Shown here: positions 1,494 through 51,236 of the stretch, in pieces
How the letters are laid out: every line of letters begins with the position of its first letter
How positions within the stretch are numbered: the stretch's first letter is position 1
Source of the DNA: Balneolaceae bacterium
Lineage (GTDB): Bacteria; Bacteroidota; Rhodothermia; Balneolales; Balneolaceae
NCBI GenBank assembly: GCA_006969905.1
Contig: CP030887.1
Coordinates: 2,840,730-2,904,729, forward strand
Length of the DNA stretch: 64,000 nt
Direction: 5' to 3'
Notes under the pieces: generated by a model
Databases searched by the model: none
Seen by the model: the letters and a program-made list of their open reading frames with translations, nothing else
Told to the model about the DNA's origin: nothing
Program-made: the position numbers and the translations under genes

Positions 1494-2291
1494 TTAATTT
1501 CCAAATTTTAGTGAATGAACAAATGAAAAGACCTGGTCTTTCCAGTCTTTCTCAGGATATGAATTTCTGATGGAATCAATTAAGGCGCTTCCTACTATAA
1601 AGCCATCGGCATTTGATGCGATACGCTGAGCATCTTCATACGATTTGATACCAAAGCCTACCATTACCGGGTTATTGATCACATTTTGCCGCACCCGGTC
1701 AATAAAACGGGTAACCGAATCTGAAACCTCATCGCCATCTCTTGCGCCGGTAACTCCTGTTACGGATACACAGTAAACAAACCCTTCGGATTTTGAATCC
1801 GCTAACTTCATTCGAACATCGGTTGTATTAGGGGCAACCAGGTAAATAATGGGTAGCGAATTCGCTTCAGCTTCTCGTTCAATAATTCCTCCTTCATCAA
1901 CCGGGATATCCGGTAGTATCAATCCGTCAACACCTGCATTCCTTGCGTTTTTGCAAAACTTTGCAACCCCATAATGCAGAACCGGGTTCATGTAGCCCAT
2001 CAGTATAATGGGTATTTGAGAGGTTTTACGGGTTTCTTTGACGATGTCAAAAATGGTATCAATGTTTATGCCATTCTCTATAGCCACATCGCTTGAGTAT
2101 TGTATAGTAGGGCCATCAGCCAGAGGATCGCTAAAAGGCATGCCCAGTTCTATTATATCTGCTCCATTCTTCTCGAATCCAAGTATCAGTTCAACGCTGG
2201 AATTGATATCGGGATAACCCGCAGTGATAAATAGACTCATTAATTTCTCTTCAGGAGCCTTTTTCTGAAATTTTTCGATGATTCTGTTCAT
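1494..2291 (-). CDS. trpA: Tryptophan synthase alpha subunit
   Basis: Cleaves indole-3-glycerol phosphate to indole and glyceraldehyde 3-phosphate and channels indole to TrpB. The 265-residue length is normal for the family. The catalytic acids are visible: Glu48 in IIELGMPFSDP and Asp59 in PLADGPTIQ. Loop and phosphate-binding motifs (GVTGARDG, VGFGIKS, GFIVGSALI) are in the expected order of a TIM barrel. The start lies 3 bases after the trpB stop, so translation is likely coupled to trpB. It is the last biosynthetic gene of the operon. Confidence 0.97.
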   Translation of the reverse strand: MNRIIEKFQKKAPEEKLMSLFITAGYPDINSSVELILGFEKNGADIIELGMPFSDPLADGPTIQYSSDVAIENGINIDTIFDIVKETRKTSQIPIILMGYMNPVLHYGVAKFCKNARNAGVDGLILPDIPVDEGGIIEREAEANSLPIIYLVAPNTTDVRMKLADSKSEGFVYCVSVTGVTGARDGDEVSDSVTRFIDRVRQNVINNPVMVGFGIKSYEDAQRIASNADGFIVGSALIDSIRNSYPEKDWKDQVFSFVHSLKFGN

Positions 2292-2294
2292 GCC

Positions 2295-3497
2295 TTACAG
2301 GTTCTCCGATATTGTTTTCATATCCTTATCACCACGACCTGAAAGATTGATAATCACAATTTCATCTTCTGTAGTTTCCGGCATCAGCTTTTCCAGCCAG
2401 GCGAAAGCATGGGCTGTTTCTAATGCGGGAATAATCCCCTCTTTCCTGGATAATAATTTAACAGCTTCCATAGCTTCCTGATCCGTTACCGCATTATACT
2501 TTACCCTGCCTGTATCATGTAAATAAGAGTGCTCAGGACCTACTCCCGGATAATCGAGCCCGGCGCTAATTGAATGAGCCAGTTCTATTTGGCCTGTTTC
2601 GCTTTGTAATAAATAGCTCAATGAGCCATGCAAAATCCCGGGTGTTCCTTTTGTTAAAGTAGCAGCCGTTTGGCCAGAGTCTACTCCGTAACCTGCTGCC
2701 TCAATGCCTATTATCTTTATGTTTTCATCTTCCAGGAACGGGTAAAAGAAACCAATGGCATTTGACCCTCCTCCCACACATGCAAGCAGGTAATCCGGCA
2801 TTCTGCCTTCGGCTTCCAGTATTTGTTTTTTAGTCTCTTTACCGATTACCTGGTGAAAATTCCTCACCATCATCGGGTACGGATGAGGGCCAACTACAGA
2901 ACCAATGATATAAAAAGTATCTTCTACATTGGTTACCCAGTCCCTGATAGCCTCATTTGTAGCATCTTTAAGGGTTTTTGATCCACTTTCAACAGACCGG
3001 ACTTCTGCACCCATCAAAGTCATTCGGTCTACGTTGAGTTTTTGACGAACCATATCTTCAGCACCCATGTAAACAACGCATTCCAATCCGAATTTTGCAC
3101 AAGCAGTTGCAGTAGCCACCCCGTGCTGCCCGGCACCGGTTTCCGCGATAATGCGGGTCTTTCCCATTCGCTTTGCAAGTAATATCTGACCTATTGCATT
3201 ATTAATCTTATGGGCGCCTGTGTGGCATAAATCTTCCCGTTTAAGATAAATCTTTGCCTTTCCGTAGTGTTTAGTCAATTTATTAGCGAATGTCAGTTTG
3301 GTGGGCCTTCCTACATATTCATCAAGCAGCTGCTCAAATTGAGCGTTGAATTCAGGATCATCTTTCGCTTTCTCATACTCATCCTCAAGGTCTTTTATAG
3401 CCGGTATCAGAATTTCAGGTACAAACTTACCGCCATAATCACCGAAGTAGCCCCGGGTGTTTGGTTGTTGATATTTCGTTGTTGTTTCGTTCATCAA
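2295..3497 (-). CDS. trpB: Tryptophan synthase beta subunit
   Basis: PLP enzyme that condenses indole with serine to give tryptophan, in a complex with TrpA. The PLP lysine is Lys97 in HTGAHKINN, and the phosphate-binding GGGSNA loop is at about 242-247. Its 400 residues fit the canonical TrpB1 type that works with TrpA. The protein begins with two consecutive ATG codons, and either could serve. It lies 42 bases after trpF, the widest gap inside the trp operon, but no promoter or terminator is obvious there. Confidence 0.97.
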
Positions 3498-3539: not shown

Positions 3540-4184
3540 TTATTCCCAAACAGATCTCATTTCATCCATCAGGGCATCAATTTTTTCAAAATCTTTTAAA
3601 CCGGGCTCTTCTTCCACCCCGCTGGATACATCAATAGCAAAAGGATTTATCTTGCTGATAGCTTGCTTTACGTTTCCTGCATTGAGTCCACCTGATAAGA
3701 AAAATGGGATTCCGGAAGAAATATTGTTAAGAATATCCCAGTTAAACGTTTGACCTGTGCCACCCCAGAGTCCGTCTGTTTTAGTATCAAACAGCAGGAA
3801 CTCTGAAACCTCACGATAGCTTTCAACTTGTTCCATAAGCTCAGAAGCTTCTGTATCCGGGGTGATATGAATAGCCTTAATAACCGGCTTGTCAATTAGC
3901 TGGCAGTACTCAATACTTTCATCACCATGAAGCTGAACAAAATCCAGTCCGCTCTGTTTGGCTATTGTATTTACTTCATCAATTGGCTGGTTTACAAAAA
4001 CACCTACCTTCTCAGGACCTTCGATCCAGTTAATAATAGCACCAGCCTCAGCCGGATCGATAAATCGTGGGCTTTTCTCATAAAAAATGAATCCCAGGTA
4101 ATCAACCAAAGCTCCCGAAGCATACCGGGCATCTTCAAGGTTTGTAATGCCACAAATCTTAATTTTAGTTTTCTGATCAGCCAT
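3540..4184 (-). CDS. trpF: Phosphoribosylanthranilate isomerase
   Basis: Isomerises N-(5-phosphoribosyl)anthranilate to the carboxyphenylamino-deoxyribulose phosphate used by TrpC. A TIM barrel of about 214 residues: KICGIT near the N terminus supplies the catalytic Cys, GVFVNQ and VQLHGDES are conserved strands, and LSGGLNAGNV and AIDVSSGVE form the phosphate-binding end with the catalytic Asp. I chose the ATG of MADQKTK, which overlaps the trpC stop by 8 bases. A longer frame with MKGVWR would intrude further into trpC. It is separate from trpC, unlike the fused TrpCF of enterobacteria. Confidence 0.95.
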   Translation of the reverse strand: MADQKTKIKICGITNLEDARYASGALVDYLGFIFYEKSPRFIDPAEAGAIINWIEGPEKVGVFVNQPIDEVNTIAKQSGLDFVQLHGDESIEYCQLIDKPVIKAIHITPDTEASELMEQVESYREVSEFLLFDTKTDGLWGGTGQTFNWDILNNISSGIPFFLSGGLNAGNVKQAISKINPFAIDVSSGVEEEPGLKDFEKIDALMDEMRSVWE

Positions 4185-4998
4185 TCGCCAGACTCCTTTC
4201 AAATTCTTTTTTGGCTTTATTAAGCAATTCTTTTACCGCCTGACCGGGATTCGTTTTCCTCATAAAGTATTCCCCGATTAATGCCGAATGAATGCCTTTT
4301 GATTTTAACAGAGCCAAATCTTTCCCGGTAGATAACCCGCTTTCAGAAACCAGGATAGTACCTTCCGGGGCCTGATTCAAAACAGAGATACCTCTGTGCA
4401 CATCCACTTCAAAGTTTTTGAGGTCCCGGTTATTAACACCCAGGATATCTACCTCACTGAAGTTAATTCGATCAAAATCTGCCTGATCATAACATTCAAC
4501 CAACGCATCCAGTTCAAATTCCTTTGCTGCAGCCAATAACTCGCTCAACTGCTCTCCTTCTGTAATGGCTACGATAATCAGCACTGCATCCGCTCCATAA
4601 GCACGGGCTTCTTTTATTTGGAAGGGATCAACAATGAAATCTTTGCGAAGTAATGGAAGCCCAACCCTTTTTGAAATTGCCTGAAGGTAGTCGAGGCTTC
4701 CCATAAAAAATGGGGAATCTGTAAGCACTGAAATAGCCGAAGCACCCCCATCCTCGTACTGTAAAGCAATATCAACAGGATTGAAGTCTTCACGGATCAC
4801 ACCTTTTGAAGGTGATCCTTTCTTCACCTCTGCAATAATGGATACGGTTTCAGTATTCTTACTCAGACCATCCTTAAAATTAATCCTGGGTTTTTCATAA
4901 CCTTCAAAAGAATGCAGATCGTTAAAAGAAACCTTAGTCTTTCGTTTCCTGAGGTCTTCTTTTGTTTGGGCTACTATGTTATCCAAAATGGTAGGCAT
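4177..4998 (-). CDS. trpC: Indole-3-glycerol phosphate synthase
   Basis: Decarboxylating ring closure that yields indole-3-glycerol phosphate. The 273-residue protein shows the family signature IIAEVKKGSPSKG at about 54-66 with its catalytic Glu and Lys, LLRKDFIVDPFQI, the LVECYD strand, GVNNRDLKNFEVD, and VSESGLSTGKDL near the C terminus. It sits 6 bases after trpD and overlaps trpF by 8 bases, consistent with translational coupling. Confidence 0.96.
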   Translation of the reverse strand: MPTILDNIVAQTKEDLRKRKTKVSFNDLHSFEGYEKPRINFKDGLSKNTETVSIIAEVKKGSPSKGVIREDFNPVDIALQYEDGGASAISVLTDSPFFMGSLDYLQAISKRVGLPLLRKDFIVDPFQIKEARAYGADAVLIIVAITEGEQLSELLAAAKEFELDALVECYDQADFDRINFSEVDILGVNNRDLKNFEVDVHRGISVLNQAPEGTILVSESGLSTGKDLALLKSKGIHSALIGEYFMRKTNPGQAVKELLNKAKKEFERSLANG

Positions 4999-5004
4999 TA
5001 AAGC

Positions 5005-6042
5005 TTATTTACCTCCTTTCACATCATTTGTAGCCTCAACAAATCTGGTAAATACCTTCTTTGCTTTTCCTGACTTCACGCTTTCTATTGCCATTTCTTT
5101 GGCTTCCTTAAGTTCACCCACTTTTCCGGATGCCTGGATAGCAAAACTTGCATTTAACAGCACAATATCCCGTTGTGGATCAGTCGCTTTATCATCGAAA
5201 ACATTCATCAAAATCTGAGCATTTTCAGCAGCATCTCCTCCCATTAATTCTTCCATTCTATAGGTATCAAAACCTAAAAACTTAGGATCGAGTGTAAATG
5301 AGGTAGAAACCATGCTTTCTTTTAGCTCAAAAACTTCACTATACCCGGTAATACTGAGCTCATCCAAGCCATCATGGGCGTTAAAGGTATAGGCAAATTC
5401 AGTATCTAAATTTGCCAATATATGAGCCATTTTCTCAGCTATCTGTTTGCTAAAAGCGCCAATTACATACCTCTTTACCCCGGCAGGGTTTGCCATAGGC
5501 CCCAGGATATTAAAAAAAGTTCTGAACCCGATAGATCTCCGGGCAGGCATTACATATTTCATTGCCGGGTGAAACATAGGGGCAAACATGAAGGCCATTC
5601 CCGCTTCGGTATAAACCTGTTCTACCTCCTTTTTACCAAGTTCTATAGCTGCGCCCAAATGTTCTAAAACATCTGCACTCCCGCATTTACTGGATGCACT
5701 TCGGTTTCCGTGCTTTATAACCGGTATTCCTGCTCCTGCTGTAACAAAGGCAGCAGCAGTAGAAATGTTGAATGTCCCTGACTTATCCCCTCCTGTTCCC
5801 ACCAAATCAACAGCTCCAGAAACATCCGCATCAACTTTGACAGACTTCTCTCTCATTACCCGGACAAAACCTGTTAGTTCATCAATGGTTTCACCTTTAA
5901 TTCTCATCGCTGTGAGGAAAGATGCTATCTGATCAGAATCCGTTTCACCGTTCATGATCATAGTTAAAGCCATTTCTGCCTCCCGCTGATCCAGGTCTTC
6001 TGAAAAAGATAGTTTTTCCAGTATGTCTTTAAACGCACTCAT
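5005..6042 (-). CDS. trpD: Anthranilate phosphoribosyltransferase
   Basis: Transfers phosphoribose from PRPP to anthranilate. The 345-residue sequence has the glycine-rich PRPP-binding loop VGTGGDKSGTFNIST (from residue 81), KHGNRSASSKCGSADVLE (110-127) for anthranilate and PRPP binding, and RRSIGFRTFFNILGP. Its start overlaps the trpG stop by 4 bases. TrpG and TrpD are separate polypeptides here. Confidence 0.96.
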   Translation of the reverse strand: MSAFKDILEKLSFSEDLDQREAEMALTMIMNGETDSDQIASFLTAMRIKGETIDELTGFVRVMREKSVKVDADVSGAVDLVGTGGDKSGTFNISTAAAFVTAGAGIPVIKHGNRSASSKCGSADVLEHLGAAIELGKKEVEQVYTEAGMAFMFAPMFHPAMKYVMPARRSIGFRTFFNILGPMANPAGVKRYVIGAFSKQIAEKMAHILANLDTEFAYTFNAHDGLDELSITGYSEVFELKESMVSTSFTLDPKFLGFDTYRMEELMGGDAAENAQILMNVFDDKATDPQRDIVLLNASFAIQASGKVGELKEAKEMAIESVKSGKAKKVFTRFVEATNDVKGGK

Positions 6043-6599
6043 TGGGCCAACCAGTTATTAATCATTTTTGGGCCCTCAACAGTCAGGATACTCTCAGGGT
6101 GAAATTGAATCCCCTCTATCGGGTATTCTTTATGGCGGACTCCCATAACCACATTTCCGGTACGGGCGGTAACCTCAAGTTCGCCGGGAATTGTTCCCGG
6201 GTCCAAAACCAATGAATGATATCTCGTAGCTGTAAAGTTTTCTTCCACATCTTTGAAGATTGAACGCCCGTCATGTTCTACCTTAGATACCTTTCCATGC
6301 ATTAATGTATCGGCATAAACTACTTGTGCACCAAAAACTTCTCCGATTGCCTGATGTCCCAGGCAAACTCCCAGAACGGGTATTTTTTTTCCAAGCCGGT
6401 TAATCACTTCTTCAGTTACCCCTGCTTCAGAAGGCCTTCCCGGACCCGGTGATATCAGTATCTTTTCAGGGTTCAACTTTTCTATTTCATCCACACTTAG
6501 TGCATCATTTCTTATCACTTTGTAGTCTTCAGTATTAACTGCTATCAAGTGAACGAGGTTGTAAGTAAAAGAATCGTAGTTGTCTATAATCAATATCAT
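6039..6599 (-). CDS. trpG: Anthranilate synthase glutaminase subunit (also possible PabA role)
   Basis: Class I glutamine amidotransferase that supplies ammonia to TrpE. The catalytic triad is visible: Cys79 in GVCLGHQAIG, and His167 and Glu169 in FHPESI. PGPGRPSEAG gives the oxyanion region. The 186-residue length is usual. Such subunits are often shared with aminodeoxychorismate synthase (PabA), so dual use with folate synthesis is possible; the operon position makes TrpG the primary call. It follows trpS by 1 base and overlaps trpD by 4. Confidence 0.95.
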   Translation of the reverse strand: MILIIDNYDSFTYNLVHLIAVNTEDYKVIRNDALSVDEIEKLNPEKILISPGPGRPSEAGVTEEVINRLGKKIPVLGVCLGHQAIGEVFGAQVVYADTLMHGKVSKVEHDGRSIFKDVEENFTATRYHSLVLDPGTIPGELEVTARTGNVVMGVRHKEYPIEGIQFHPESILTVEGPKMINNWLAQ

Positions 6600-6600
6600 G

Positions 6601-7590
6601 CTAGAAATTCCTTACAATTCCTGTTACTTCCCGAATGGGTTCCATTACCTGTTCAGCTCTCGCCCTAGCTTTTTTGCCCCCCTCCTTTAAAACATCCAAT
6701 ACATAACCGGGCCGTTTTTCTAATTCCTTTCTTCGATCACGGGCTTCTGCAAAATAGTCATTCATCAACTCTAAAAGTTCTTTTTTAGCATGTCCGTATC
6801 CATATCCACCGGCTTTATACTTTTCGGCTATTTCATTTTGCTTTTCTGATGAAGCAAAAAGTTTGATCAGGGCAAACACATTGTCTGAGTCAGGATCTTT
6901 GGGTTCTTCAAGCGGGGTCGAATCCGTTTGAATAGACATTATCGTTTTCTTTAAAGATTTCCCTTCTTCAAAAATGTCAATCGCATTGTTATAGCTTTTA
7001 CTCATCTTTCTGCCATCAATACCGGGCACTACAGCTACCGATTTAACAATATGCTCTTCAGGAATAACGAGAAACTCTCCGCCATAAGCCCTGTTAAATT
7101 TACCGGCCAAATCACGCGTTATCTCGATATTCTGCTTTTGGTCTTCCCCAACGGGTACTATATCAGAATGATAGATTAAAATATCAGCTGCCTGCAATAT
7201 CGGATAGGTAAACAAACCAATATTCGGGCTAAGGCCTGCAGCTATTTTATCTTTATAGGAAACCCCTTTCTCCATCAAACTAACCGGGGTAAGCGTACCC
7301 AATATCCAGGCCAGTTCAGTAACCTGTGGCACATCCGACTGGGCAAAAAAGGTAGATTTATCCGGATCAAGGCCCAAAGCGAGGTAATCGAGGGTTACAT
7401 CAATCGTATTTTGGTAAAGCTCTTTTCCATCATTAAGGGATGTAAGGGAATGATAATTAGCTATAAAATAAAAAGAGTCAGCAGCAGCATCCTGCATTGC
7501 TATATGCTGCCTTATTGCCCCAAAATAATTCCCTATATGGAGCTTACCGGATGGTTGTATACCCGATAATATGGTTTTTCTTTTACTCAT
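6601..7590 (-). CDS. trpS: Tryptophanyl-tRNA synthetase
   Basis: Class I aminoacyl-tRNA synthetase that charges tRNA-Trp. The HIGN signature is at 18-21 (PSGKLHIGNYFG) and KMSKS at 195-199 (IDGRKMSKSYNN). The 329-residue length matches the bacterial enzyme. It overlaps the trpE stop by 4 bases (ATGA) and precedes trpG by 1 base, so it is an integral part of the trp operon rather than a neighbour. It would therefore be under the same Trp-codon attenuator as the biosynthetic genes, which would link charging capacity to the charging state of tRNA-Trp. Confidence 0.97.
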   Translation of the reverse strand: MSKRKTILSGIQPSGKLHIGNYFGAIRQHIAMQDAAADSFYFIANYHSLTSLNDGKELYQNTIDVTLDYLALGLDPDKSTFFAQSDVPQVTELAWILGTLTPVSLMEKGVSYKDKIAAGLSPNIGLFTYPILQAADILIYHSDIVPVGEDQKQNIEITRDLAGKFNRAYGGEFLVIPEEHIVKSVAVVPGIDGRKMSKSYNNAIDIFEEGKSLKKTIMSIQTDSTPLEEPKDPDSDNVFALIKLFASSEKQNEIAEKYKAGGYGYGHAKKELLELMNDYFAEARDRRKELEKRPGYVLDVLKEGGKKARARAEQVMEPIREVTGIVRNF

Positions 7591-9047
7591 TGAATGTCTA
7601 ATGCTACACTAAGTGCCTGAACTAAGGCACCGGCTTTGTTCTGTGTTTCTATAAACTCTTTGTGTGGGTCACTGTCCGCTACAATCCCAGCTCCGGCCTG
7701 AATATAAACTTTGTTACCGGTAACAACCATTGTTCTGATTGCAATACATGTATCCATATTCCCTGAAAAGTCAAAATAACCTACAGCACCGGCATAAATA
7801 CCTCTTTTTGTTGGCTCCAGTTCGTCTATGATTTCCATAGCACGAATTTTTGGAGCACCACTAACTGTTCCCGCAGGAAAACACTGCATGAGTGCATCAA
7901 CTGAAGTTTGATCTTCCCTGAGTTCACCTACTACATCACTTACAATATGCATTACATGAGAATAGCGCTCTATCACCTGGTTACGTTGCATTTTTACAGT
8001 TCCTGCTTCACAAACTCTGGAGAGGTCATTCCGGCCTAAATCGACTAACATAATATGCTCTGCAACTTCTTTAGGATCGTTCTTTAAATCGATTTCAAGC
8101 TCAAGGTCTTCCTCGTGCGTTTCTCCCCTGGGGCGGGTTCCGGCAATGGGTAATACCCGTACCTGTTTATCCTGAACCCGTACAAGCACTTCGGGTGATG
8201 AGCCAACTATGCTGAACTCATCAAAATCGAGGTAAAAAAGATAAGGCGAAGGATTCACCATTCTAAGGGCACGATACAACATAAACGGGTCACCGCTCAT
8301 ATCAGCCTGAAAACGCTGAGATAAGACTACCTGAAAAATATCACCTTCAAAAATATAATCTTTGCCTTTATTGACCATTTCACTGAATCGTTCTTCCTTG
8401 AGATTACTTTCCAGGGAATCCGGATTTATAGAAAAAGGACGGGCATCGTAATTGGAGCTCATTGCAGTTTCTTCCATTCGAACCAAAGCCGCATTTGCTT
8501 CTTCATAAGTTGCTTCAATGTCATCAACCTCAGAAACGAACACAGTTTTAATCAGTACCACCTGGTGTTTTACATGATCAAAGGCATAGATCTCATCATA
8601 AAAACCCCATACTGCTTCAGGGAGCTTTAAATCATCCGGTGGTACATTGGGCAGGCGCTCTACCAAACGGAAAGTATCATAAGAAGAAAACCCTACGGCA
8701 CCACCTGTTAATCGTGGAAGATCCGGGATAAAAGGCTCCCTGTAGGCAGTGGTTAATTCTCTAAGTTTTTCAAAATAGCCTGAGTTAACAAGTTTCTTTG
8801 TACCTTTGGTCTCCAAAAATGTTTGCTCACCATCAAATATAAGTTTCTGATACGGGTTTGAACCTATAAATGAATACCTGGCCAATTGCTCTCCACCCTC
8901 AACCGACTCTAACAAAAACGGATTTTCGACCCCTTCCCTTATATTCATGAATAAAGAAACAGGAGTAAGTACATCGGCCAGTAATCGCTTATATATCGGG
9001 ATTGCTGAATACGTTTTAGAAAGTTTTAAAAATTCTTCTTTTTTCAT
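7587..9047 (-). CDS. trpE: Anthranilate synthase component I
   Basis: Converts chorismate and ammonia to anthranilate with TrpG. The 486-residue protein has the N-terminal regulatory domain and a C-terminal chorismate-binding domain (PIAGTRPRGETHEED, HIMLVDLGRNDLSRV, GTVSGAPKIRAMEIIDELE, YAGAVGYF). The allosteric tryptophan motif LLES-N10-S is intact: LLES at 45-48 and Ser59. End-product inhibition is therefore expected in addition to the transcriptional attenuation upstream. It is the first structural gene, starting 53 bases after the U-run of the leader terminator. Confidence 0.97.
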   Translation of the reverse strand: MKKEEFLKLSKTYSAIPIYKRLLADVLTPVSLFMNIREGVENPFLLESVEGGEQLARYSFIGSNPYQKLIFDGEQTFLETKGTKKLVNSGYFEKLRELTTAYREPFIPDLPRLTGGAVGFSSYDTFRLVERLPNVPPDDLKLPEAVWGFYDEIYAFDHVKHQVVLIKTVFVSEVDDIEATYEEANAALVRMEETAMSSNYDARPFSINPDSLESNLKEERFSEMVNKGKDYIFEGDIFQVVLSQRFQADMSGDPFMLYRALRMVNPSPYLFYLDFDEFSIVGSSPEVLVRVQDKQVRVLPIAGTRPRGETHEEDLELEIDLKNDPKEVAEHIMLVDLGRNDLSRVCEAGTVKMQRNQVIERYSHVMHIVSDVVGELREDQTSVDALMQCFPAGTVSGAPKIRAMEIIDELEPTKRGIYAGAVGYFDFSGNMDTCIAIRTMVVTGNKVYIQAGAGIVADSDPHKEFIETQNKAGALVQALSVALDIQ

Positions 9048-9100
9048 TTTTTTTAATCACTAAACCAATGTTTTAAAGGAATAGTGAGGAATTATCTTCA

Positions 9101-9133
9101 AAAAAAAACCCACTCTTCCAAAGGAACAGTGGG
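9101..9133 (-). terminator. trp leader intrinsic terminator (attenuator)
   Basis: Read on the minus strand, CCCACU-G-UUCC-UUU-GGAA-G-AGUGGG forms a ten-pair stem with one G-G mismatch, followed directly by eight U residues. This is a textbook rho-independent terminator, and it lies between the leader peptide and trpE. The left arm (9133-9127) is also the right arm of the upstream antiterminator, so the two hairpins are mutually exclusive. Confidence 0.9.
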
Positions 9134-9180
9134 TATGTCAAAGTAAAATTATGTCATTCAGTTACGCAAAATACCCACTG
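9127..9180 (-). promoter_or_regulatory. trp antiterminator hairpin
   Basis: A perfect 10-base inverted repeat, CAGUGGGUAU (9180-9171) and AUACCCACUG (9136-9127), flanks a 34-base loop. Its 5' arm lies inside the last codons of the leader peptide gene and its 3' arm is the 5' arm of the terminator. A ribosome stalled at the Trp codons (9206-9198) leaves this hairpin free to form and blocks the terminator. A ribosome that reaches the stop codon at 9162 covers the 5' arm and lets the terminator fold. Confidence 0.85.
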
Positions 9181-9236
9181 CTATTTATTAGCGAAGGCCA
9201 CCACCAAATATTAGATTGGATATCTGCGTTTTTCAT
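9162..9236 (-). CDS. trpL: trp operon leader peptide with Trp-Trp-Trp
   Basis: A 24-codon frame with an ATG start and TAA stop, too short for usual gene finding. It begins MKNADIQSNI, continues with three consecutive UGG codons (residues 11-13, bases 9206-9198) and then PSLIN, and ends SSGYFA. Three Trp codons in a row in a short frame directly before a terminator/antiterminator pair and trpE is the signature of ribosome-mediated attenuation. The peptide is presumed to have no function other than sensing charged tRNA-Trp. No clear Shine-Dalgarno sequence precedes it, as is common in Bacteroidota. Confidence 0.9.
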   Translation of the reverse strand: MKNADIQSNIWWWPSLINSSGYFA

Positions 9237-9243
9237 GACGGAA

Positions 9244-9274
9244 TGAATATAGCGGGCACTATTTTTAATAGCAA
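9244..9274 (-). promoter_or_regulatory. Possible trp operon promoter
   Basis: On the minus strand, TTG (9274-9272) and TATATTCA (9251-9244) are separated by 20 bases and resemble the Bacteroidota -33 TTTG and -7 TAnnTTTG elements (six of eight matches at -7). The start site would fall only a few bases before the leader ATG, giving a very short 5' end. This is pattern matching only. Confidence 0.35.
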
Positions 9275-9306
9275 CGCAATGGTTAAAATAAACCGTGTTT
9301 TTTCGC

Positions 9307-9337
9307 TTGAAATACAATTAAGGTTTAGCTAGTTTTC
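9307..9337 (+). promoter_or_regulatory. Possible promoter of the propeller/PorV/glycan unit
   Basis: TTG (9307-9309) and TAGTTTTC (9330-9337) with a 20-base spacer match the Bacteroidota promoter pattern at seven of eight -7 positions. It faces away from the trp leader and would give a 5' untranslated region of about 60 bases before 9404. The rest of the 9237-9403 intergenic stretch shows nothing else I can identify. Confidence 0.4.
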
Positions 9338-9403
9338 ATTTCATTAAAAACAACGCCTATTCTGCATCGTTACCATTTCCCGAATCTAAAGATCATCTAA
9401 GCG

Positions 9404-10222
9404 GTGCATTGTTTGTTGAATACTTTTTTTAAACCTCTCTTATTTATTACAGGCGTTTTGGCAATAGTTACAGGTTGCGATTCCACAATTAGTCCAAAAG
9501 ACTATAACGATATCTCTCCTTTTGTATCGAATCTTCAAATCAGTCCGGATTCGCTCCTTTTCTCTGCCTCAGATGGCCAAAAAGATACCACAGTAACTTT
9601 TGCATTGATGGTGGACGGGTTTGAGTTTGAGCCTGATTCAGCGCCTTATTATTACTTGTTTAAAGATGGTGCATTTAGTGCATTTCAAGAAGGAAAACTC
9701 AATCTATCTTCCAATAACGCTAATCTTTATGAAGCTGGTTTCAGCATAGAAACCCAAACTTTTGATTTTGAGGAATACTCAGTTCTTGTTACACCTGGGC
9801 AATCAACAGGCAGTAATTATGTACAAGCCAAAATTGTACAGCTCGGAGTTGCAGTTAATGCACCGGAGATTCTGGAAGTAAATAATCCTGAATCTGTAGT
9901 AATCCCTTCATCCGGTAACAGTACCACTGTGCGATTTACGGCAAAAGTAACCGATATTGATGGGCAAGATAATATTGAAAGTGTGTTCCTCAATTTCAGG
10001 AATCCTGATGGTTCACTTCTTAGTGCCAATCCGTTTGTAATGCTGGATGATGGAGGAGCAGAAAGTGGGGATTTAAGTCCTGCTGATTCAATTTTTACAG
10101 ATACCTTTATTATTGATTCATCCAATACTCCCAATAACCGGACAGCAATTTATTGGGCAATAGACAAAGCAGGCCTTAGCAGCGATACTTTGGAAACCCC
10201 ATTTAATATTGTGGAGAATTGA
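9404..10222 (+). CDS. Lipoprotein with Ig-like/beta-sandwich C-terminal domain
   Basis: A 272-residue protein with a hydrophobic N terminus and lipobox VTGC (Cys25), so predicted to be lipid-anchored at the cell envelope. The middle is a beta-rich region. The C-terminal half (from about residue 150) has an acidic loop DDGGAESGDLSPADSIFTDTF, of the kind seen in extracellular Ig-like or cadherin-like modules, where such loops often bind Ca2+. I do not recognise a specific family. The start used is GTG; TTG codons shortly after are alternatives. It is the first gene of a run of nine closely spaced genes, ending one base before the next start. Confidence 0.7.
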   Translation: MHCLLNTFFKPLLFITGVLAIVTGCDSTISPKDYNDISPFVSNLQISPDSLLFSASDGQKDTTVTFALMVDGFEFEPDSAPYYYLFKDGAFSAFQEGKLNLSSNNANLYEAGFSIETQTFDFEEYSVLVTPGQSTGSNYVQAKIVQLGVAVNAPEILEVNNPESVVIPSSGNSTTVRFTAKVTDIDGQDNIESVFLNFRNPDGSLLSANPFVMLDDGGAESGDLSPADSIFTDTFIIDSSNTPNNRTAIYWAIDKAGLSSDTLETPFNIVEN

Positions 10223-10223
10223 T

Positions 10224-11818
10224 ATGAGAAACATGCTTCTTCTACTTTCAATTCTCGTTTTTGTAATGGACTTATCCCATGCTCAAAGTGTCTATTCAGT
10301 CAATTCAGCGTTCAACAGCATTCGTCAAAATGGAGTTTCTTCCATCGAAGCAGGTGGTGATACTGTCTGGATAAGCCCTTCTCTAAACTTTAATGTAGCC
10401 AACAGTGCAGATTGGTTACTCCCAACAGGGATAGACAGCATTTTGAGTTCGGATGGCCGGGTATTTTCTTTATCCATTGATGGCCCCAGAATTGGCGTAG
10501 GCCTTGGCTACTCTCCTGTTGTAAATGATGAGTCTGTACCCTCAGCATTCGGATATTACTTTTCTGAAGATCATGGAATAACCTGGGCATTCTCTGATTT
10601 TCCCCTTGATGCCCCCCCCCGGACAATTGTAATGATGATTTGCCCTATGATGGTTCGTGTGATATTGCATTTACTTATGGAGACAGCACTTATTTCCGGA
10701 CCAGGATAACCGTACCCCAGCAATCCCCCCCTTACTCAATTGCTGTTAAAAACAATGCCGTTTTTTCAGCTAACTGGGCTTCAGGATTGTTACGAAGTAT
10801 GGATTTAGGACAAACATGGGAAAGAATCATCTTACCTCCTGCTACAGCTCAATCTATGACACCGGATAATAGCTACAGCTGGTCATCCAGTTTCCAGGGT
10901 ACCACGGTTGCCCGTTATGACCCAAGAAGTGACTTAAACTTACTGGGATTCGCCACTTATATAGACACAAATAATCAGGTTTGGTATGGCAGTGCAAGCG
11001 GGATAAACATTTCTACTGATGCTATGAAGACTTCAACCGATAGCATAAGTTGGAGGCATATTACCTTCAATGGCCAAGCTAATGGACTATCAGGGAACTG
11101 GGTGATTGATATTAACCAGGAGCCAGTTACCGGCAAAATCTGGATGACGAATTGGGTGATAGATTCCCAGGATGGCGAGCAATTCGGAATTGTATCAACC
11201 GAAGACGATGGACAGACTTTTGAGCAACATCTTATAGGTGAAAAAATAAATGATATTGGTTTTAAAGATGGTACAATTTTCGCAGCAGGAGAAAACGGGC
11301 TTTTTATTTCCAGGGATAATGGCAAGACCTGGACAAAGTCCCCGACTATAAGAAGCGCGAATACCTTTATAAAAGAATCAGCTGAGTTTTTTGCTGTTGC
11401 ATCCACCTCTGACAGAGTTTGGATTGGCACATCAGACGGTATTGCTTCATCAGATGATTTGGGAAGAACCTGGGAAATTACCAGGGTAAACTTTCCTTTA
11501 TCGGGAGGTAATGTATTTGATCCCGAAGCACGATCAGCAGAAACCTTCGCGTATCCAAATCCATTCTCCCCTTCACTACACGAACTGATTCGCATTAAAT
11601 TCGAAGTAAAACAAGAAGGTTCAGTCAGTATCAGGATTTTTGATTTTGGAATGAATCTGGTAAGAGAAATTGTGAATGATTCTTTCACTATAGGAGAATA
11701 TGAAGCTGTGTGGGATGGCATTGATGCCAAAGGCCGGCAGGTAGCTAACGCCCCATATATTTACATTGTTGAAATGGCTGATGAAACTGTAAATGGTAAA
11801 ATTCTGGTGGTTGAATAA
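10224..11818 (+). pseudogene. Secreted Asp-box beta-propeller with FlgD-like C-terminal domain, frameshifted at a C9 tract
   Basis: Two overlapping frames encode one protein. The first (10224-10709) has a signal peptide (MRNMLLLLSI to SHAQS) and the first Asp-box, SEDHGITWAF. After GAT GCC CCC CCC the reading must move back one base to reach PDNCNDDLPYDGSC and the second frame (to 11818). That frame holds SMDLGQTW, STEDDGQTF, SRDNGKTW and SDDLGRTW, which are sialidase/sortilin-type propeller blades. The C terminus has YPNPFSP followed by a FlgD-Ig-like sandwich (EYEAVWDGIDAKGRQV), as found on type IX secretion cargo. With ten instead of nine C residues (10612-10620) the gene would read through as about 531 residues. 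This may be slippage, phase variation, true inactivation or a sequencing error. Confidence 0.8.
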
Positions 11819-51097: not shown

Positions 51098-51132
51098 AAG
51101 AAAGAGTGAAAAAAGGCTCACTTATTTTTCTT
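51098..51132 (-). promoter_or_regulatory. Possible anti-P1 hairpin (riboswitch expression platform)
   Basis: On the minus strand AAGAAA (51132-51127) and AGUGA (51122-51118) pair with UCACU (51109-51105) and UUUCUU (51103-51098). This imperfect hairpin uses the same bases as the 3' strand of riboswitch helix P1, so the two folds exclude each other. No U-run follows, so control at translation or by a downstream element is more likely than intrinsic termination. This is my own reading and not a known motif. Confidence 0.4.
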
Positions 51133-51236
51133 GATATAAATTATACCAAGTGGGATTTGGCACCTTTTTCCAATAGTATCGAAACGGTTGCCAAGACTTC
51201 AACGGGCCCATTCCCTCAGTCTTTCTTAATAAGCAT
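51121..51236 (-). ncRNA. SAM-I (S-box) riboswitch
   Basis: Read on the minus strand the leader contains CUUAUUAAGA, GACUGAGGGA, GGGCCCGUUGAAGUC, UUGGCAACC, AAGGUGCCAAAUCC and a closing AAUAAG, in the order and spacing of the SAM-I aptamer. P1 pairs CUUAUU with AAUAAG, P2 pairs AGAC with GUCU around the kink-turn, and P3 pairs GGCAACC with GGUGCC. P4 is short. It should bind S-adenosylmethionine and repress the methionine synthase genes that start 45 bases downstream. Confidence 0.92.

Follow-up and report, generated by a model that had tools for sequence, protein, structure and literature searches.

The locus raises the question of how transcription of a tryptophan operon is controlled in a Balneolaceae bacterium. 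The window, i.e., the whole stretch of 64,000 nucleotides that was analysed (assembly GCA_006969905.1, contig CP030887.1, positions 2,840,730 to 2,904,729), carries on its minus strand a trp operon in the order trpE-trpS-trpG-trpD-trpC-trpF-trpB-trpA, as assigned with NCBIfam models:

7587 to 9047, minus strand: trpE, anthranilate synthase component I (TIGR00564), with its ATG at 9047
6601 to 7590, minus strand: trpS, tryptophan--tRNA ligase (TIGR00233), the second operon gene, between trpE and trpG
6039 to 6599, minus strand: trpG, glutamine amidotransferase (TIGR00566)
5005 to 6042, minus strand: trpD (TIGR01245)
4177 to 4998, minus strand: trpC (NF001377)
3540 to 4202, minus strand: trpF (NF002298)
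2295 to 3497, minus strand: trpB (TIGR00263)
1494 to 2291, minus strand: trpA (TIGR00262)

The genes overlap or almost touch, with the exception of a 42-nt gap between trpF and trpB. A sequence-only reading of this DNA had placed a ribosome-mediated trp attenuator upstream of trpE, and both the anatomy of the leader and its conservation in relatives support that proposal. It is very probable that a ribosome-mediated transcription attenuator ties the whole operon, from trpE to trpA, to charged tRNA-Trp. With trpS under the same switch, the sensor (charged tRNA-Trp) would govern its own charging enzyme.

The leader occupies positions 9100-9274, and its elements are given below in the order of transcription:

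9246 to 9274, minus strand: promoter-like pair TTGCTA (9274-9269) and TATATT (9251-9246), spaced by 17 nt and ending 9 nt before the leader ATG
9162 to 9236, minus strand: leader ORF MKNADIQSNIWWWPSLINSSGYFA, 24 sense codons and TAA, with the ATG at 9236 and the TAA at 9164-9162
9217 to 9229, minus strand: 5' strand of the proposed protector (anti-antiterminator) hairpin, segment 1, in codons 3-7, from the fold of the leader ORF
9198 to 9206, minus strand: regulatory codons UGG UGG UGG (TGGTGGTGG), codons 11-13, read directly
9171 to 9180, minus strand: antiterminator 5' arm, segment 2, DNA CAGTGGGTAT, RNA CAGUGGGUAU, in codons 19-22, read directly
9164 to 9177, minus strand: 3' strand of the proposed protector hairpin, overlapping both segment 2 and the end of the leader ORF
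9127 to 9136, minus strand: antiterminator 3' arm, segment 3, DNA ATACCCACTG, RNA AUACCCACUG, common to the terminator 5' strand
9100 to 9134, minus strand: intrinsic terminator, with ACCCACU (9134-9128), apical UUCC/GGAA and AGUGGGU (9114-9108), from folding and covariation

Direct reading of the letters reproduced what had been described before trpE: the 24-codon leader with its three UGG codons, the perfect 10-bp antiterminator, and the U-run terminator that shares a strand with it. The antiterminator 5' arm was also found where it had been placed, inside the last leader codons. The locus combines a short ORF, holding consecutive codons for the end-product amino acid, with the cognate biosynthetic operon downstream, and the antiterminator (9180-9171 paired with 9136-9127) and the terminator are mutually exclusive, having one strand in common. 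The terminator is the minimum-free-energy hairpin of its stretch (-16.7 kcal/mol), and its U-run consists of nine T, reaching 9100. A simple terminator scan did not have the 9134-9100 terminator in its output, which we attribute to the mismatch that interrupts the stem.

We examined whether this arrangement is kept in relatives. A search with TrpE gave matches in 58 of 58 genomes at E 0.001. In 55 of these the match is strong enough for TrpE itself; we regard the three weaker ones (about E 1e-58 to 1e-52) as paralogues. The relatives are Balneolaceae, among them Gracilimonas, Balneola, Rhodohalobacter and Fodinibius, in agreement with the Balneolota-type genome that had been guessed from the letters. 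Removal of 32 exact duplicates from 135 trpE loci left 103 upstream regions. Three were set aside since their contigs begin inside trpE (L097, L127, L128), as were five distant loci, namely four from Ignavibacteria(e) and one titled 'Bacteroidetes bacterium' (L132). The remaining 95 regions were counted as Balneolales by kinship or record title; L077 and L106 were included despite other titles, their TrpE being 68-71% identical to that of the window.

A Trp leader followed by a terminator-like hairpin was found in 85 of the 95 distinct Balneolales regions. The Trp run is WWW or longer in 75 of these leaders, WW in nine and WRW in one. The Trp leader is absent from 10 of the 95 regions, which are nine similar loci (L021, L025, L070, L076, L077, L078, L085, L091 and L092) and L040. 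Two of the nine have a genus assignment, and it is the same genus; the two whose regions were read (L021 and L025) retain a T-rich, terminator-like hairpin. trpS follows trpE in 70 of 70 checkable Balneolales loci, with a gap of up to ~0.5 kb (25 loci fetched without downstream sequence are excluded from this count), and the five distant loci have trpG, not trpS, after trpE. The LLES-N10-S motif that had been noticed in TrpE, and named as a feedback motif, was confirmed near the N-terminus of the window protein by direct reading, and the exact motif occurs in TrpE of 64 of the 85 leader-bearing loci, the window's included.

A covariance model, R1, was built from 53 leaders. R1 placed the element before trpE in 47 of 48 family genomes (some of which had supplied model sequences) and in seven of nine other genomes of the order, none of them in the model. 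Under strict filters it placed no element at trpE in 60 other genomes of the class, two of which gave partial matches to the terminator end, away from trpE. The R1 matches indicate that this sequence family spans the order Balneolales. Short frames with WW or longer were seen in 27 of 40 sampled class genomes from outside the Balneolales (26 of the 27 with a terminator) and in 26 of 40 sampled genomes from the rest of the phylum (24 with a terminator). The samples were drawn from 59 class genomes and 99 phylum genomes with a match, and were picked to spread over families. Shuffles of these 80 regions gave WW in 15 of 400 cases and WWW in none of 400. Judged by these frames, the Trp-leader kind reaches beyond the order, though the R1 sequence family does not. 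Short WW or WWW frames also precede trpE in L129, L131, L133 and L135 (Ignavibacteria/Ignavibacteriae), two of them reading WWKENGI or WWKKNGI, which suggests that these groups also have Trp leaders.

Covariation was assessed in the alignment of 53 leaders. The covariation score of the terminator was higher than in any of the 500 shuffles, and three neighbouring apical pairs change in concert. By simpler counts the terminator does not stand out, as the number of pairs changed on both sides was reached by 220 of 500 shuffles and the number of pair types by 494 of 500. The antiterminator core is almost invariant, with a compensatory change from U-A to C-G in three sequences and GC/GU/AU exchange beside the core. 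Its covariation score was reached by one of 500 shuffles; the fraction of paired cells (75.3%) was reached by 32 of 500 and the pair types by 471 of 500. The A2 alignment (22 loci) was excluded from the pair counts because its protector columns are misaligned, and A3 and A4 were likewise uncounted. In an alignment-free comparison of all 85 leaders, the native pairing of segments 2 and 3 was stronger than in 2000 of 2000 permutations among species. The group of leaders ending in QAV was not separated from permutations (1293 of 2000 as strong). Against shuffles, the antiterminator reached z < -2 in 69 of the 85 leaders; beyond the order, that level was reached by no more than 13 of 26 class loci and four of 24 phylum loci. 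The comparison with relatives that the sequence-only reading had called for came out in its favour as regards the UGG runs and the exclusive stems, which are kept, but was mixed for the antiterminator pair counts.

The position of the 5' arm relative to the frame is informative. The A of its AGYGG core falls at codon position 3 in 35 leaders, position 1 in 19 and position 2 in two; the core overlaps the stop in five, lies after it in 16 and is absent in eight of the 85. Because the core is retained while reading frame and stop position vary, the data point to an arm conserved as RNA, not as peptide. Many loci of other families have a leader that stops three codons past the Trp run (WWWPFC, WWWSIR), and their arm overlaps or comes after the stop. 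The description of the switch as a more compact form does not hold in general, given the arms at or after the stop in these other families.

We then considered where the leader transcript begins. In 83 of 85 leaders, an in-frame leader start is preceded at a distance of 5-10 nt by the end of a TTG-N-TAnn[TC]T pair, and 4 of 1420 random positions show this pattern, which had been written after an earlier, looser scan had been inspected. In that looser scan, which fixed one start codon, the distance was 5-11 nt for 61 of 85 leaders. A promoter scan of the window yields fewer pairs than shuffles, so the TTGCTA/TATATT match by itself is no evidence. With usual promoter spacing, transcription would start 0-5 nt before the leader start codon. 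Because the promoter-like pair ends 5-10 nt before the start, the trp leader RNA is probably almost leaderless, and ribosome loading could in that case begin once the RNA exits the polymerase. Flavobacteria are without Shine-Dalgarno sequences, and leaderless mRNAs are reported to be rare in those members of the phylum that have been studied: their share is 5.5% in Flavobacterium psychrophilum (PMC9723704), and in Bacteroides thetaiotaomicron 5' UTRs under 10 nt make up about 3.7% (PMC7366714).

A leaderless Trp attenuator is described for trpL of Sinorhizobium meliloti (rnTrpL/peTrpL), where the RNA starts at the leader ATG and the leaderless trpL has trans roles (PMC7298713). S. meliloti is an Alphaproteobacterium with a reported 5' end, whereas the 5' end here is deduced from promoter spacing. 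By analogy, the terminated leader RNA or the peptide in Balneolales might have an additional, non-exclusive role in trans, which the probably near-leaderless start would favour; we consider this very unlikely. Since the peptide varies outside the Trp run, and conservation of the arm is at the RNA level, the peptide itself is unlikely to have a conserved function.

The leader ORF folded alone forms a hairpin of 9229-9217 with 9177-9164 (-22.8 kcal/mol), which hides seven of the 10 antiterminator-arm bases in the window RNA. The sequence-only reading had held that no separate protector hairpin is needed. This is doubtful for the window in view of the hairpin just described, and the relatives give a mixed picture. 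When all 85 leaders were taken together, the pre-Trp segment paired with the arm region and beyond more strongly than in any of 2000 permutations. When groups were defined by peptide ending, the permutations as strong as the native pairing numbered none of 2000 for 'other' (40 leaders), five for QAV (11), 17 for SSG (13) and 238 for AV (21). Support from shuffles is weak, with z < -2 in eight of 85 leaders vs. seven of 253 decoy segments. We read the protector as probably present in the window RNA and in several groups, and not as universal.

The proposed sequence of events is as follows. Transcription would begin at the leader AUG or a few nt before it. With no ribosome on the leader, the hairpin of segments 1 and 2 would mask most of the antiterminator arm, the terminator would form, and transcription would stop at ~9100. 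When Trp is plentiful, the ribosome would reach the stop codon and its footprint would cover the antiterminator arm, again allowing the terminator to form. When charged tRNA-Trp is scarce, the ribosome would stall at codons 11-13, keeping segment 1 unpaired and leaving codons 19-22 free. The antiterminator of segments 2 and 3 would then form first, and the polymerase would read into trpE.

Folding with ribosome masks is in part consistent with this scheme. When the transcript had just reached the 3' arm of the antiterminator, masking the first Trp codon gave the antiterminator. The terminator was obtained with the ribosome at the stop. It also remains the lowest-energy fold of the full transcript when the mask covers the first Trp codon, and a mask at the third Trp codon let the protector re-form around the ribosome. 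With no ribosome, transcripts of 75-110 nt had the protector as minimum and a 118-nt transcript the antiterminator; from 124 nt the minimum was the protector with the hairpin/terminator. Footprint sizes in the masks were taken from general knowledge. Given these energy minima, the decision would have to be kinetic, as attenuator decisions usually are.

Leaders of a related type were found before other genes. Seven weaker R1 places were fetched, and four of them are Cys/Met leaders with similar arms (L259, L261, L262, L263), followed by genes that resemble each other. The other three (L257, L258, L260) were rejected as leaders and read as terminators behind genes. In L261, whose proteins were the only ones scanned, the genes downstream encode a rhodanese-domain protein and a nitrite/sulfite reductase-domain protein. 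The Cys/Met leader at L261:283-399, e.g., MNTQNQIHNFSMIPTTMCVMCMCCCMCMPRGSGTDMSK, has a similar in-frame antiterminator arm and terminator. A search of 58 family genomes with the L261 rhodanese gave 13 loci (L264-L276) in 12 genomes, among which L264 and L271 are the same places as L261 and L259. In each of the 12 genomes, one locus (12 of the 13 in all) combines a terminator with a Cys/Met-rich frame and a pairing arm that begins before the stop of that frame; these counts were made with a finder of frames with three or more Cys and carry no shuffle control. Arm pairing in the 12 loci gave z < -2 in nine, and -2.0, -1.7 and -1.6 in the others. The 13th locus, a second copy in one genome, has no Cys/Met-rich frame. 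The genome of the window has no such rhodanese protein at E 1e-60. The Cys/Met leader is a candidate sulfur-amino-acid attenuator in other Balneolaceae.

From these comparisons we lean slightly toward the view that Balneolales, and probably the whole class, possess a portable attenuator module. Its arm would lie in the last leader codons (in any frame) or at the stop, an outer hairpin would favour the 'off' state without a ribosome, and the trp leaders would be almost leaderless. The sensor codons would be swapped, with Trp upstream of trpE-trpS and a combination of Cys and Met where a sulfurtransferase and a nitrite/sulfite reductase-type gene follow, and the terminator/antiterminator core would stay recognisably similar.

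The same leaders bear on a reading in which translation is coupled to termination non-specifically, any ribosome entry altering termination and the Trp run not being the sensor. In ribosome-free folds the protector hides most of the antiterminator arm, so that leader translation as such would matter. However, 85 of 95 Balneolales loci retain the Trp codons while other parts of the peptide and the stop position vary, and the related modules before sulfur genes have Cys/Met codons in place of Trp. We judge this reading to be very unlikely.

Other regulators of trp genes were searched for in the genome and in the window. No match to the Trp repressor (TrpR) family was found in the genome, and control genomes were matched; TRAP (TrpBP, PF02081) likewise gave no matches in the genome, with Bacillus subtilis positive as control. 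At Rfam gathering thresholds, neither a T-box nor any other trp element was matched in the window, whose single gathering match is a SAM (S-box) riboswitch at 51119-51235 on the minus strand (84.6 bits). It is highly improbable that a TRAP-like Trp-binding protein or an uncharged tRNA (T-box) sets the switch with the short frame being incidental, even though trp terminator/antiterminator switches are reported to be run by TRAP in Bacillus subtilis (PMC4027176). In addition to the missing matches, the conserved feature is the in-frame UGG run, in a frame whose start adjoins the promoter-like pair.

Chance occurrence was estimated on dinucleotide shuffles of 9048-9400 (353 nt upstream of trpE). 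A short WWW frame appeared in 4 of 20000 shuffles, and 1 of 20000 combined such a frame with a perfect 10-bp inverted repeat within 80 nt. The individual parts are less telling. A perfect 10-bp inverted repeat by itself is not rare (261 of 4000 shuffles), shuffles contain terminator-like hairpins just as often, and the genome has 52 copies of TGGTGGTGG vs. 51 of the reversed pattern; the triple UGG by itself was dropped as evidence on that count. That a plain terminator lies near trpE and the Trp-rich frame arose by chance, a reading for which these part frequencies would speak, has negligible probability, given the rarity of the joint anatomy in shuffles, its conservation in relatives, and a divergent neighbouring frame that leaves no obvious gene needing a terminator before trpE. 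Conservation is stronger evidence than the shuffle statistics.

Ribosome-mediated attenuation, then, is the reading to be compared with known systems. The E. coli/proteobacterial trp leader (RF00513) shares with the Balneolales leader the short ORF, tandem UGG codons, mutually exclusive pairings, a U-run terminator and the trp operon. In contrast to E. coli, the antiterminator arm here lies in the reading frame, segment 1 lies before (not over) the Trp codons, and the 5' leader ahead of the start codon is probably almost absent. Assignment to RF00513 (Trp_leader) was rejected at 18.8 bits vs. a gathering threshold of 41. Assignment to Bacteroid-trp (RF01692, gathering threshold 49 bits) was rejected as well, the family being absent from the 14 matches up to E 10. 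RF01692 is, by its Rfam description, a Trp peptide leader RNA of Bacteroidota and in that respect alike, whereas its consensus hairpin and 3' end differ from the arms here. With strict filters it has no match in the genome of the window and matches 14 of 158 phylum genomes, all of one family. No gathering matches to it were found in 20 other loci (19 from Balneolales and one from Ignavibacteria).

The sequence-only reading was partly right in calling trp regulation far less documented in this group; Rfam, however, already holds RF01692, which was described in Bacteroidetes (Weinberg et al., 2010; PMC2864571). Trp peptide leaders of Bacteroidota were thus already known, and comparison of the elements gives good support for the Balneolales layout being different and new. 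A 2010 study states that, ermC aside, no leader-peptide systems were known outside Proteobacteria and Actinobacteria before its own (PMC2965389), and a study of Flavobacterium reports strong indications that amino-acid operons are preceded by leader-peptide attenuators (PMC9723704). Corynebacterium and Streptomyces trp and trpS attenuators are reported to have leaders with double or triple UGG, and trpS of some Streptomyces to have its own attenuator (PMC1262725), whereas trpS here is the second gene under the same switch. The ilvBNC leader of Corynebacterium glutamicum is described by a three-hairpin model in which antiantiterminator, antiterminator and terminator share strands, as here (PMC11857589). 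That leader serves a branched-chain operon in Actinobacteria and is backed by mutational evidence, whereas the present one is predicted from sequence. Among the matches listed, the open-licence literature gave no report of a trp attenuator for Balneolales or Rhodothermia. A 2010 study by Lopatovskaya et al., cited in PMC4833913, could list attenuators in relatives of this clade. As a case of translation-coupled transcription control in Bacteroidota, the Trp switch would be both testable and order-wide.

Other amino-acid genes of the same genome were inspected. No leader was seen upstream of pheA, and the region upstream of leuA has only two 11-codon frames, apparently parts of the preceding gene. 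hisG (L254) is preceded by a 26-codon leader, VIIKNLHSSHIHHGVHHLHSGHHHVH, with eleven His codons and a TATATT box 7 nt before its GTG; by eye, the hisG upstream region has no convincing intrinsic terminator. Upstream of the trp leader, the longest frame of the neighbouring DNA is the divergent one at 9404-10222 on the plus strand, inside which lies a 105-aa minus-strand frame. Farther on, frames at 10209-10709 and 10640-11818 (plus strand) were seen by eye to overlap in different phases, and may represent one secreted protein split by a frameshift.
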